Of a DNA stretch of 11,007 nt, positions 2,190 through 9,878 are shown piece after piece. This DNA comes from Erysipelotrichia bacterium (GTDB taxonomy: Bacteria; Bacillota_I; Bacilli_A; Erysipelotrichales; Erysipelotrichaceae). Positions within the stretch are counted from its first letter, which is position 1; the number at the start of each line of letters is the position of its first letter. The notes under the pieces are model-generated. The model was not told the DNA's origin. It did not search any database and was given only the letters and a program-made list of their open reading frames with translations. The stretch lies in contig SAAR01000094.1 of NCBI GenBank assembly GCA_009916335.1, positions 1 to 11,007 on the forward strand. The letters run 5' to 3'. The position numbers and the translations under genes are program-made.

Positions 2190-2324
2190 TTCCACTTTAG
2201 TAGGTTGCTCAACTTAGATTATTACACCGTAATACGGGTATAATCTGTAACATAAATATTGCCATTTCTGACTTACTGTGCCTATTCAATAACGGTAATT
2301 TGCATGTCAAAATCACGCACCCCC
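2190..2324 (-). ncRNA. tmRNA coding piece (5' half) with tag reading frame
   Basis: The piece begins with GGGGGTG at 2324. P2 is followed by AAGTC at 2274-2270, matching the AGUC that precedes the E. coli resume codon. The frame from 2269 then reads RNGNIYVTDYTRITV and ends in TAATAA (2224-2219). GATTAT (2245-2240) pairs with ATAATC (2222-2217), so the stops sit in an H5-like helix as in known tmRNAs. The resume codon could instead be the in-frame GGC at 2263, giving a 13-residue tag. The tag lacks the usual YALAA or similar proteolysis signal. The 3' end is probably set by cleavage at the tRNA 5' end (2186). Confidence 0.8.
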
Positions 2325-2356
2325 ATTTACCAGTCTTGAGATGAATACTGGTAAAT
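2325..2356 (-). other. 10-bp hairpin in tmRNA intervening segment
   Basis: On the minus strand ATTTACCAGT (2356-2347) pairs perfectly with ACTGGTAAAT (2334-2325) around a 12-base loop. Its 3' base directly precedes the first base of the tmRNA acceptor stem at 2324. It probably presents the 5' end of the coding piece for processing. A weaker ATCGG/CCGAT stem (2418-2414 with 2390-2386) lies earlier in the same 97-base segment. Confidence 0.7.
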
Positions 2357-2421
2357 TCATTGCTACCTTTCTTCGAGGCTTCTCTATCGGAATTATCGTG
2401 CACATTCAAAACGCCGATTCG

Positions 2422-2481
2422 TGGTGGAGGTGGAGGGAGTCAAACCCTCGTCCATACAAGCCTTTATTGACCTAACAGCAC
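2422..2481 (-). ncRNA. tmRNA acceptor piece (3' half, transcribed first)
   Basis: This half carries the P2 3' strand, the T-arm (2449-2433), the acceptor 3' strand (2432-2426), discriminator A (2425) and CCA (2424-2422). GTGC at 2481-2478 can extend P2 by pairing with GCAC at 2281-2278. The mature 5' end is unknown; it should lie between the stop codon of the 60-aa gene (2488-2490) and 2481. The T-arm with its flanking GGAC is, from memory, close to the one-piece tmRNAs of Bacteroidota, which points to an origin from a host of that phylum. Confidence 0.88.
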
Positions 2482-2972: not shown

Positions 2973-2998
2973 AAAAATAATTGCAGTATACGGATATT

Positions 2999-3173
2999 GT
3001 TATTTCTTATTACCCGCATCCCCTTTCCTTCCTATAAACTAGCAGACAACTGCTAGGTTCCTCCCATCGAGGCAAGCAGAGCTATTAGGGTACTGGATTA
3101 TACCACAATCATATGAGGCTGACCACCAACTCTATAGTTAACTGGCGAGAAAACTAATAGAGTATAAAATAAC
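2999..3173 (-). ncRNA. Structured RNA domain, family unknown
   Basis: A 175-base domain is closed by AAATAAC/GTTATTT pairing (3167-3173 with 2999-3005), beginning at the base after the stop of the 38-aa gene. Inside are an 11-bp hairpin with one bulge (3129-3163), a perfect 7-bp hairpin CTAGCAG-TTGT-CTGCTAG on the minus strand (3056-3039) and a possible long-range TACCC/GGGTA pairing (3092-3088 with 3015-3011). CTATTAG (3160-3154) can instead pair with CTAATAG (3088-3082), closing a tRNA-sized region; this excludes the 3129-3163 hairpin. The alternatives suggest a switching leader for the genes downstream. It matches no riboswitch or tRNA consensus I know. Confidence 0.5.
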
Positions 3174-3722: not shown

Positions 3723-4100
3723 TTTGATGTTTGATTTTAAGTTATTTTTAAATGAGGACGGCTATTTAACGCATAGCTGCGTGGTTTTGGTTAATCTCGA
3801 TCATTACTAATCACATTACTTGAGAAAATGAAACTTAACCAGATGAACATTGCAATCCATAGTTTAAAGTCGATGCAGGTGAGGATGCAAACCCTCTCCT
3901 TACTAGACTACCTGATTTTAACGTCTGCACTAATACTACCTTAACAATCAATCGCATAACTTAGCTTAATTGTTCAGCGGATAGATATAAGCCCCACAGG
4001 TTTGTCATGGTTTCTCACCATAATTCGTTTATTTCTAATGTTGAGTGTGTCTACTTTCACAAGCAAACACACTCTCAGATCCAAAATTAATATATAGATA
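3723..4100 (-). other. Structured intergenic region with T-arm-like stem-loop
   Basis: About 380 bases without a convincing gene. On the minus strand, in order: GAGTGTGT/ACACACTC (4074-4067 with 4050-4043), ATGGT/ACCAT (4021-4007), AACAAT/ATTGTT (3974-3943), a T-arm-like GAGG-GTTTGCAT-CCTC (3896-3881) flanked by CAGGT/ACCTG (3914-3910 with 3880-3876), GGTTAA/TTAACC pairing (3840-3835 with 3794-3789), and ACGCA-GCTA-TGCGT (3782-3769). The 3930-3925 GTGCAG strand can pair with 3878-3873 instead, through a G-U possible only on the minus strand. Probably a long structured leader or ncRNA for the 140-aa gene. A 40-codon frame (3957-3835) exists but looks like chance. Confidence 0.5.
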
Positions 4101-5262: not shown

Positions 5263-6744
5263 CTACGCTTTAATTTCAACTTTAGAATTGTTAAAAGCAT
5301 TGATTATACTTCTAATAATTTTTTCATTTATTGGAATACCTTTTAGTATAGCTTTATTGATTTGAATTGCTATTAGCATTTCAGCAACAGTTCGACTATA
5401 GTTAAATGTAGGAGTAAGCATCCTATATTCAACTGTATGATGTTCATCACAAGTTTTTACGTTTGTTAAAAACAGTAATAACGATGAAACGAAATCAAAA
5501 TTAGTCATTCCAAAAAACGAAAGTACCTCTTTCCAAATCAATGGAATATCTATTCCGTTAATAAAATTTTTTAATTCAGAGTTACAAAGAAATCCATTAC
5601 CCCAATAGTCGTTTAAAGTTTTGTGGAGTTTTATTAATGGTATGTTCTTTTCATTTTCTTCGTAACTATCACTAAGGTAACTAAAAATGTTATTAATCAT
5701 CATATTATGATAACCCAAACACTCTTTATTTACATTCTTTATTATGCGAGTATAACTATTGTTATATCGATGATCTAAATGAACATGAATGGAGCTTTCA
5801 TTTGTTAAATTTGTACTTTTACGCATTTCTTCAACAATCTGATAAAACCCAGTTAATCCTTTTATTCCATCCAGTCTAATGCGATTTTCATTTAGTCTTG
5901 AATGACAATCACCATCCCAACCCACATCGTATGACAAGATTCCTTTTTTTAACAAATGTTTGTACTTTTGCTTTTTGTATAACATTTGCTTTGTTTTTCG
6001 ATATACACCTCCATATAAAGGACGTTTACTTTCTATGATATGTCTTTTCTGATAATATTCAATTTCTACTCCAAATGTCATTCGTTTTTTGTTACTAATA
6101 ACTTTTGTTGTTTCTTCAAATAATAAGATCTTCAGTAAAGCATATGATAAATATAGACAGAATATATCCCGCATTGTATGTGTTGATGGGATTATTAGCT
6201 CAAAATGTTTAATATATCCACAATGCTGCCTAGATAACTGTCTTAATATCATTGACATATTGTTTCCGCAATAAATATCAGGCTGCCATAAAGGATTCAT
6301 ATAAATAACTCTAAAATCTATATCTCTAGATCCAGTATATGTGATACGGTTTAACAGACTGGTATCTAATTTACGGTATAATCTTTCATATACCCACTGG
6401 TGTTGTTTGTCGTTACAATTTGTGTTTAATATTAGTTTATTTTCAACACCCGGTTTTATAGAGAATTCACTAAGAAAGTCCAAATATGTATAATTTGTAT
6501 TTTTTTCTACAAATAATCGAAGATCATTTATAGATTCAAAACTTAAATCTTCTTTTGAGAAACTTTCATCATTCATTCTAGGTTCATAAACAATCTTTTT
6601 CTCACATTCAACCATTTCTTCAGGAAATAGTTTTTTAACAAATGTGTGTATGTAAGGCATGTACTTTCTATTATTTCTCTTAAAAGTATTAAACTCTGTT
6701 GGAGAAGTAAGTAATGCTTCAATCAATTCTTCTTGAAAATTCAT
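5263..6744 (-). CDS. Amidoligase-like protein (Amidoligase_2 type), 493 aa
   Basis: The C-terminal half matches the putative amidoligase family of the COOH-NH2 ligase (glutamine synthetase-like) fold. Visible motifs are TFGVEIEYY (about 223-231, the GxExE motif), WDGDCHSRLNENRIRLDGIKG (about 276-296), SSIHVHLDH (about 317-325, the HxH motif) and TVEYRMLTPTFNYSR (about 437-451, the ExR motif). Members are thought to join a carboxylate to an amine using ATP, often modifying proteins or cell-wall peptides. The first 220 residues are a separate domain I do not recognise. I start at ATG 6744; the frame extends nine codons further to a TTG at 6771, but that lies in the loop of the hairpin at 6760-6789. 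Substrate unknown. The glycine usually before the HxH is replaced by SSI, so activity is not assured. Confidence 0.78.
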   Translation of the reverse strand: MNFQEELIEALLTSPTEFNTFKRNNRKYMPYIHTFVKKLFPEEMVECEKKIVYEPRMNDESFSKEDLSFESINDLRLFVEKNTNYTYLDFLSEFSIKPGVENKLILNTNCNDKQHQWVYERLYRKLDTSLLNRITYTGSRDIDFRVIYMNPLWQPDIYCGNNMSMILRQLSRQHCGYIKHFELIIPSTHTMRDIFCLYLSYALLKILLFEETTKVISNKKRMTFGVEIEYYQKRHIIESKRPLYGGVYRKTKQMLYKKQKYKHLLKKGILSYDVGWDGDCHSRLNENRIRLDGIKGLTGFYQIVEEMRKSTNLTNESSIHVHLDHRYNNSYTRIIKNVNKECLGYHNMMINNIFSYLSDSYEENEKNIPLIKLHKTLNDYWGNGFLCNSELKNFINGIDIPLIWKEVLSFFGMTNFDFVSSLLLFLTNVKTCDEHHTVEYRMLTPTFNYSRTVAEMLIAIQINKAILKGIPINEKIIRSIINAFNNSKVEIKA

Positions 6745-6759
6745 AATATTAACTGTTTT

Positions 6760-6789
6760 ATAGGGTCTCAATATTACATGAGACCCTAT
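6760..6789 (-). promoter_or_regulatory. 11-bp perfect hairpin before amidoligase gene
   Basis: TAGGGTCTCA (6761-6770) and TGAGACCCTA (6779-6788) are perfectly complementary, and A6760-T6789 adds one pair, with an 8-base loop. It lies between the 86-aa gene and the amidoligase-like gene, ending 15 bases before the ATG at 6744. No T-run follows on either strand, so it is not a standard terminator. It may be a processing site, an mRNA stabiliser or an operator. Confidence 0.6.
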
Positions 6790-9795: not shown

Positions 9796-9878
9796 AAAAA
9801 TTTGGGGGATTCGAACCCCCGATAGCATGTAGTGTAATAAAAACTGTTGATCCCTCTCTAATTTTTCTACATACTACC
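9796..9878 (-). ncRNA. T-arm-bearing structured RNA with 12-bp helix
   Basis: On the minus strand GGTAGTATGTAG (9878-9867) pairs with CTACATGCTATC (9832-9821) over 12 bp. Two of these pairs are G-U, which would be C-A mismatches on the other strand, so the RNA runs on minus. Directly after it comes a perfect tRNA-type T-arm, GGGGG-TTCGAAT-CCCCC (9820-9804). The tail AATTTTT (9802-9796) can pair with AAAAATT (9866-9860) in the loop, making a pseudoknot or a tRNA-like acceptor. No D-arm or anticodon stem can be drawn, so it is not a normal tRNA. It may be a tRNA mimic in the leader of the 9552-9767 gene, or a decayed tRNA. Confidence 0.6.

Follow-up and report, generated by a model that had tools for sequence, protein, structure and literature searches.

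The permuted arrangement of tmRNA genes is well established: the tmRNA database paper gives 11,946 unique sequences of this form and 79 unique tmRNAs from bacteriophages, all forms taken together (PMC11915505). The accessible part of that paper treats standard, intron and permuted genes as separate forms and makes no mention of a permuted gene that holds an intron. Among 133 unique tmRNA structures from phages, 53 are of the two-piece form (PMC9004378), and RNase P and tRNase Z have been called probable processors of two-piece tmRNAs (PMC3985003). The permuted form has been described in three bacterial lineages and in phages; the phages considered here have likely Bacteroidota hosts, whose sampled genomes almost always contain the standard form. 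CrAssphages are predicted to infect Bacteroidales (PMC6235969). A search of the open-licence literature returned no paper on a crAss-like permuted tmRNA gene, and tmRNA is absent from the main text of a crAss genome survey (PMC7886860). Only PMC11915505 and a paper on permuted tRNA were found for permuted tmRNA with a group I intron.

Architecture of the locus

The minus strand of the window, the whole 11,007-nucleotide stretch of DNA that was analysed, carries at 2187-2482 a circularly permuted tmRNA gene in which an acceptor half is followed by a 97-nt intervening sequence and a coding half. The acceptor half runs from 2482 to 2422 and contains, in order, a P2 strand, GGAC, the T-arm and CACCUCC-A-CCA. 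It opens with the 3' strand of P2c (UGUGC, 2478-2482), which is the 5' end of the gene according to the match to the Rfam model RF04321. This is followed by an internal loop, UGUUAGG (2471-2477), opposite AUAG (2285-2282), and by the 3' strands of P2b (UCAAUAA, 2464-2470) and P2a (UUGUAU, 2454-2459). The P2 strands are supported by covariation and by the minimum free energy (MFE) fold, and the conservation of the UGUUAGG/AUAG loop is partly by construction, because both motifs served as anchors in the collection of the aligned rows. The T-arm, GAGGG-UUUGACU-CCCUC (2433-2449), is covered by the RF04321 match and has U56 in place of C56 in its loop. The acceptor 3' strand CACCUCC (2432-2426), the discriminator A73 (2425) and an encoded CCA (2424-2422) complete this half, with 2422 as the expected 3' end of the acceptor piece.

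The intervening sequence (2325-2421), which would be removed by tRNA-processing enzymes, leads to the coding half, which extends from G1 at 2324 past the tag stop at 2222 and up to a tRNA gene at 2186-2113. It begins with the acceptor 5' strand GGGGGUG (G1-G7, 2318-2324), the expected 5' end of the coding piece, and with a D-arm analogue, CGUGAUUUUGAC (2306-2317), which has GA here versus GG in 22 of 25 rows. The P2 5' strands AUGCAA (2305-2300), UUAUUGA (2292-2286) and GCACA (2281-2277) follow, the last two separated by the AUAG loop (2285-2282). The tag frame GNIYVTDYTRITV was located by tag mapping and by a match to the lineage model R1 described below, and reads from the resume codon GGC to UAA (2222-2263). 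The remaining 3' part of the coding piece (2187-2221) is expected to end at the start of the directly adjoining tRNA gene (2113-2186), called by ARAGORN as Asn with anticodon AUU. An A at position 34 is unusual in a bacterial-type Asn tRNA. At the equivalent position the relatives have tRNA-like elements, some of them degenerate, and a T-arm was found within 190 nt 3' of the tag in 20 of 25 loci versus 2 of 546 control pieces.

As originally predicted, the acceptor stem formed between the two halves is a perfect 7-bp helix, GGGGGUG (2324-2318) with CACCUCC (2432-2426), of the alanine type with G3-U70. The predicted P2 of 7 plus 9 pairs proved real as a pairing, by covariation and by the fold, but is better described as three helices of 6 bp (2459-2454/2305-2300), 7 bp (2470-2464/2292-2286) and 5-6 bp (2482-2478/2281-2277). 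The distance from P2 to the resume codon is 13 nt, in agreement with the claim that there is no space for PK1. PK2-PK4 had not been seen either, and inspection of the window likewise revealed no clear pseudoknot 3' of the tag. In many relatives this region contains a recurring pseudoknot-like element, AACGGCTAAGCTAATGTCGT..AGC, which was not seen in the window. The locus shares with tmRNA genes of this class the order of the halves, the G3-U70 acceptor, the T-arm and D-arm analogue, the joining P2 and a conserved tag frame.

Model searches and folding

A cmscan search with RF04321 (tmRNA_permuted), a model built from RF01849-RF01851, matched the window over its full length and in permuted order with 40.3 bits and an E-value of 2.2e-5. 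The proposed Infernal/Rfam check was thus successful in length and order, but the score did not reach the gathering score of 47 bits, which is a search threshold and not a biological feature. Relatives called tmRNA* by ARAGORN are also below this cut-off (cr115_1, 37.5 bits; cr60_1, 40.3 bits; cr52_1, 41.3 bits), and locus L146, called by ARAGORN as well, scored 32.1 bits. The beta_tmRNA model RF01850 gave a partial match of 30.1 bits (cut-off 84) that included only positions 76-168 of 331. The other proposed check, ARAGORN, was negative: it reported the neighbouring tRNA only and did not call a permuted tmRNA in the window.

The relatives decide the question. R1 is a sequence-only model of the coding halves of 23 relatives from which the window and L155, a locus in a Bacteroidota genome, were left out. 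R1 matched the window at 2324-2218 with 48.3 bits and an E-value of 1.3e-14 (such E-values are rough for this tool), and also matched L155 (E 2.7e-12). When searched against 72 other phage permuted loci, R1 had 0 matches at an E-value of 0.01. In an unconstrained single-strand MFE fold the acceptor, the T-arm and all three P2 helices appear; the energy of this fold is ordinary (z -0.97), with 35 of 200 shuffles at least equal.

Covariation and compensating changes

The alignment comprises 25 sequences, mapped by script and by eye: the window, 23 crAss-type relatives and L155. Covariation was evaluated for 26 pairs in 24 distinct rows (621 cells). Cells were paired in 83.3% of cases versus 70.6% after shuffling, and 18 of the 26 pairs change on both sides versus 10.7 in the shuffled sets, with 77 versus 29.3 cells showing such changes. 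The covariation score was 0.346 versus 0.121 (0 of 500 shuffles as high), and slid registers did not exceed 0.125. The covariation in related phages that had been called for was therefore found. The number of pair types (34 versus 29.1) shows a weak excess, 14 of 500 shuffles being as high.

The helices contribute unequally. Paired cells amount to 98.6% in P2c, 82.1% in P2b and 50.4% in P2a in the register of the window, and some rows pair better in P2a one position over. The full P2b (six pairs) is present in 13 of 25 rows and the full P2c (five pairs) in 24 of 25. Pairs 5-7 of the acceptor stem covary, and row CANRPB, whose acceptor is shifted by one column, was scored as misses. A 7-bp acceptor with G3-U70 is found in 25 of 25 sequences, in six sequence versions, although this count is partly by construction because the acceptor halves were located with a pairing pattern. 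The rows were gathered with the motifs ATAGG and AGG, whose conservation is for that reason partly by construction as well.

The window itself displays two matched changes. Its P2c, GCACA/UGUGC, replaces GUCAA/UUGAC and fully pairs with 0 of 24 swapped partners in either direction. The other change involves the tRNA elbow, whose tertiary pair is 19-56. Among the 13 rows with a plain 7-nt T-loop, TTC accompanies GG in the D-like loop in 11 of 11 cases, and TTT accompanies GA in 2 of 2, the window and cr53_1. GA with TTT would preserve the elbow pair G19-C56 as A19-U56, on the evidence of these two cases only. In cr6_1 and in the cut locus L235, TTTG lies at the T-loop exon-intron edge, with GG in cr6_1; both were left out of the 19-56 count because their splice site is not fixed. 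The matched change of T-loop and D-like loop would speak against decay of the window gene. At the level of sequence comparison, the relatives confirm that the permuted tmRNA gene of the window is real.

The tag peptide

In 33 of 33 sequences compared, several of which are near or exact copies, the tag frame keeps its resume and stop codons. The tag of the window is GNIYVTDYTRITV as above, and that of cr114_1, whose syntenic gene ARAGORN calls permuted, is GNFYVTDYTRIAA. The first residue is G in 28 tags and D in 5. The last two residues are AA in 17, VA in 13, SA in 1, GA in 1 and TV in 1, the window, whose ITV end makes it the only one of the 33 tags without a terminal Ala (32 of 33 end in A). 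The DYT core occurs in 22 of 25 tags, and the window keeps the core YVTDYTRI.

The terminal AA of a tag is the usual degradation signal. Among distinct ARAGORN-called tags of Bacteroidota standard tmRNAs, 36 of 36 end in AA and 18 of 36 start with G or D, in a set that consists of the 30 best-scoring loci plus weak permuted-model matches and is not a random sample. Distinct ARAGORN-called tags of other phage permuted genes, likewise a non-random set that shares one acceptor pattern, end in AA in 70 of 73 cases and start with A in 70 of 73. The predicted tag is retained in the Suoliviridae lineage, yet its AA end is relaxed. Because the tag of the window lacks a terminal Ala-Ala, ribosome release, and not marking for proteolysis, is probably its main effect.

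Phage placement and gene order

A megablast comparison of the window with the phage collection gave no match, and another DNA comparison with phage records gave three short matches, confined to the tRNA part. At the protein level, the 502-aa ORF at 5263-6771 has partial relatives in the crAss-like phages cr114_1, cr118_1 and cr125_1 (25-49% identity over 13-42% of the query). Proteins P0001-P0007 are 83-95% identical to it, and close relatives of the window phage therefore exist. The window and cr114_1, which is classified as Crassvirales, Suoliviridae, Uncouvirinae, share the order 502-aa ORF, Hatchet, RAGATH-9, tmRNA and sigma-factor gene at similar distances. The Hatchet ribozyme of the window (3910-4027, minus strand) scores 88.8 bits and has a copy at the matching place in cr114_1. 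RAGATH-9 RNA (2979-3122, minus strand; 46.2 bits, below its cut-off) lies upstream of the tmRNA, as it does in several relatives with 97-158 bits. A lone T-arm, GGGGGTTCGAATCCCCC, was also seen at 9804-9820 of the minus strand, outside the listed minus-strand ORFs and in a place where no tRNA is called.

Among the ORFs of the window, PHROGs and Pfam name only the sigma factor (10 scanned), as does NCBIfam (7 scanned), and no terminase, capsid or portal hallmark gene was recognised in the 10 ORFs scanned from the 11-kb window. Searches of IMG/VR returned nothing useful for the sigma factor, for the 502-aa protein or for an exact acceptor string. The window likely derives from a Suoliviridae-related crAss-like phage, a placement made because of the 502-aa homologue, the gene order and the R1 match. 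Its hosts are likely Bacteroidota, because of the crAss-like kinship. The original prediction of a permuted tmRNA gene in a phage of Bacteroidota is accordingly supported by the R1 match, the covariation, the conserved tag and the gene order of cr114_1, with the hosts as the presumptive part.

Distribution among phages and hosts

R1 matched 19 of 24 phage records, which correspond to 19 of 20 Suoliviridae and 0 of 4 others. Half of the records (12 of 24) had been found via the tmRNA gene and had fed R1; the remaining 12 were picked after a terminase search. In these 12 records outside R1 the gene is present in 7, all of them among the 8 Suoliviridae, and in none of the 4 others. The Suoliviridae record without an R1 match is Azobacteroides phage ProJPt-Bp1, and the four records outside the family in which R1 had no match are crAss001, DAC15, CrAssphage ZA and Flavobacterium phage Fpv1. 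Four of the seven independent matches are weak (26.9-30 bits). RF04321 detects these as well as cr50_1; of the five, cr273_1 lies just below the cut-off and the other four exceed it. ARAGORN calls the same five genes permuted (5 of 5). RF04321 had no match in cr1_1 and cr55_1.

In other sets, ARAGORN made permuted calls in 7 of 17 loci, which include the unrelated L122, and in 4 of 13 loci (L142, L143, L146 and L153, of which L142 and L143 are copies), and it also called L155. A last pattern scan added L237 as a complete gene and L235 and L236 as cut ones, with a permuted call in 1 of 3 (L237). L122, a match to the tag pattern, was rejected as a chance hit in a protein-coding gene, and the genome loci L144, L145, L148, L149, L150, L152 and L154 were also rejected as chance. 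Six crAss-like records carry an SsrA annotation (cr114_1, cr125_1, cr115_1, cr52_1, cr60_1 and cr10_1). The gene had been taken for an unusual lone case, a view contradicted by the 19 of 24 records, the six annotations and the presence of permuted tmRNA in many phages. The predicted gene is kept in most Suoliviridae examined, and the window appears as a divergent member of the lineage.

Several loci lie outside the named phage records. L146, L147 and L151 (98.7-100.1 kb) have the size of crAss-like phages and are binned in Bacilli and Sphaerochaeta MAGs; they are likely misbinned phages. L034 from IMG/VR is another permuted tmRNA of phage origin; its tag, GKFSIASEGRVVPMTRQQLKAVA, starts with G, a tRNA with anticodon TTA lies next to it, and in a search of smaller size R1 matched it weakly (15.1 bits).

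The host phylum was sampled through a Sphingobacteriales MAG, whose phylum was taken to be Bacteroidota. Standard tmRNA above the cut-off (full-length RF00023) was found in 113 of 118 sampled genomes, which agrees with the statement that Bacteroidota normally have one-piece tmRNA. Permuted tmRNA above the cut-off was found in 1 of 296 Bacteroidota genomes, in the phage-like region of L155. A further 23 of 296 gave weaker permuted-model matches, and for the 11 loci fetched ARAGORN reported standard tmRNA in 10 and tRNAs only in one. The L155 gene (also L197; 63.1 bits, tag GKVIQMNNAPVRLAA) is on a 1.6-Mb contig and adjoins tRNA genes, with DNA polymerase A and helicase genes about 4-7 kb away, a phage-like neighbourhood. 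SmpB is encoded in 0 of 12 relatives (the control was positive in 10 of 14 genomes), and host SmpB would therefore be needed.

Inserts in the genes of relatives

The permuted gene gathers inserts in the relatives: group I introns, endonuclease ORFs and a tRNA gene. Matches to the group I intron model RF00028 (74.9-96.7 bits) fall between the two strands of the T-stem in cr6_1 (L132, 909-1168), cr4_1 (L133, 1091-1380), L138 (4117-4373) and L151 (4609-4860). By sequence alone, cr118_1, cr1_1 and cr55_1 resemble these T-loop intron cases; an RF00028 scan of cr118_1 gave no match. Pfam finds an HNH domain in ORFs of cr4_1 and cr118_1 and has no match in the ORF of cr6_1. Where a permuted gene has such a predicted T-loop intron, the permuted and intron forms are combined.

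In cr56_1, cr113_1 and MT835588 (L130, L131 and L129) the halves are separated by a gap of 601 nt (about 1560-2162) with a reverse-strand ORF inside, annotated as an endonuclease in cr56_1 and cr113_1; the cr56_1 ORF has no Pfam match. The intervening sequence of cr114_1 (L121) contains a tRNA-His gene (15854-15925). Upstream of the tmRNA in L128, L130, L131, L133, L139 and L146 there are interlocked inverted repeats, GACCAAAG..CTATGTAGG..TTTGGTC..CCTACATAG, which are pseudoknot-like by eye and mostly stop a few nucleotides before the acceptor half, so that they might shape its 5' end.

Proposed function and alternative explanations

We consider it very probable that this is a permuted tmRNA gene from a phage of likely crAss-like type, that cleavage of its transcript would produce a two-piece tmRNA, and that this RNA likely serves to rescue stalled ribosomes of the host. 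RNase P probably cuts the precursor at G1 (2324) and 3'-end enzymes at the CCA (2422), with loss of the 97-nt intervening RNA; the coding piece likely receives its 3' end through cleavage at the adjoining tRNA (2186/2187). The two pieces would be held together through P2, charged with alanine and then bound by host SmpB, upon which Ala-GNIYVTDYTRITV would be appended to the stuck chain, giving the expected tag AGNIYVTDYTRITV. That rescue without proteolysis is the purpose is a guess from the tag ends.

The least probable alternative, with a likelihood close to nil, is that a tRNA fragment pairs by chance with unrelated sequence and that there is no tmRNA at all. The ordinary MFE energy (z -0.97) and the silence of ARAGORN would be compatible with it, but the independent R1 match (E 1.3e-14), the covariation, the conserved tag and the gene order contradict it, and R1 and covariation together refute it. 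The same silence, along with the RF04321 score below the cut-off, can be read as decay of a gene that was functional earlier in the lineage and is now drifting, a reading also favoured by a tag end, ITV, unlike that of 32 of the 33 and by a post-tag pseudoknot that is not recognisable in the window. We regard such decay as improbable, since the acceptor stem is perfect with G3-U70, P2c has been swapped yet is intact, A19-U56 is a matching change and the tag frame is open with its conserved YVTDYTRI core. Low RF04321 scores, moreover, are also found in relatives that ARAGORN does call (cr115_1, 37.5 bits; L146, 32.1 bits).

An intact RNA could also oppose trans-translation by the host, competing for SmpB and stalled ribosomes. 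Likely hosts already own a tmRNA (113 of 118 sampled genomes above the cut-off), the tags of the lineage drift from the AA end (17 of 33 versus 36 of 36 in the host set), and the tmRNA of phage DS6A, which has no CDS, inhibits endogenous tmRNA in E. coli (PMC11915505). A mere competitor, however, would need neither the tag frame, kept in 33 of 33, nor its core, conserved in 22 of 25, and we think this role unlikely. Stop-codon recoding was rejected as a reason for the gene, TAG being the stop in 5 of 22 listed ORFs of the window (some overlap and may not be genes). In cr114_1 the terminase frame is interrupted under table 11 by 12 stops that table 15 reads, and there is a tRNA with anticodon CTA.

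Beyond ribosome rescue by a two-piece tmRNA, a broader and more doubtful proposal, which we hold as possible but would not bet on, is that Suoliviridae have their own permuted tmRNA lineage, distinct from the alphaproteobacterial, betaproteobacterial and cyanobacterial ones. Its tags would have been adapted in their first residues to the Bacteroidota type and would have lost the AA degron, so that ribosomes are freed and products are not destroyed, and the gene would also be a landing site for mobile elements, giving rise to the T-loop group I intron forms. Two candidates for evidence of origin were rejected: the resume-codon context, which is not specific, and the ATAGG motif, which is too short for a tree and with which the lineage rows were collected. 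ATAGG occurs in 10 of 102 other phage permuted genes and in 0 of 29 Bacteroidota standard genes. The presence of the gene in phages whose likely hosts have the standard form, and its retention across a gut-phage family, open two questions to direct test: why a phage has a ribosome-rescue RNA of its own, and whether trans-translation with a tag that lacks the AA degron frees ribosomes but spares the products from proteolysis.

Comparison with known systems

The closest counterparts within the lineage are the SsrA genes of cr114_1, cr125_1, cr115_1, cr52_1, cr60_1 and cr10_1, which represent the same gene, in cr114_1 also in the same neighbourhood. The window differs from these six records in U56/A19, which it shares with cr53_1, in the encoded CCA, in another P2c, in the ITV end of its tag and in a post-tag pseudoknot that is not recognisable. 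The Suoliviridae lineage is set apart from other phage permuted genes by tags that start with G or D (33 of 33; A in 70 of 73 of the others), by tag ends that depart from AA and by R1, which at an E-value of 0.01 matches 0 of 72 of them. The two-piece tmRNA of the marine phage Melnitz is also phage-borne and permuted (PMC9004378). That gene was grouped with alphaproteobacterial tmRNA in the accessible part of PMC9004378, whereas the likely hosts of the window phage use the standard form and its tag differs. The standard tmRNA of Bacteroidota (RF00023) shares with the lineage a possible G or D at the start of the tag but, unlike the gene in the window, is unpermuted and has tags that end in AA (36 of 36). 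With the permuted tmRNAs of the RF04321 type from alphaproteobacteria, betaproteobacteria and cyanobacteria, the locus has in common the order of the halves, a short intervening sequence, G3-U70, the T-arm, P2 and a tag that follows P2.
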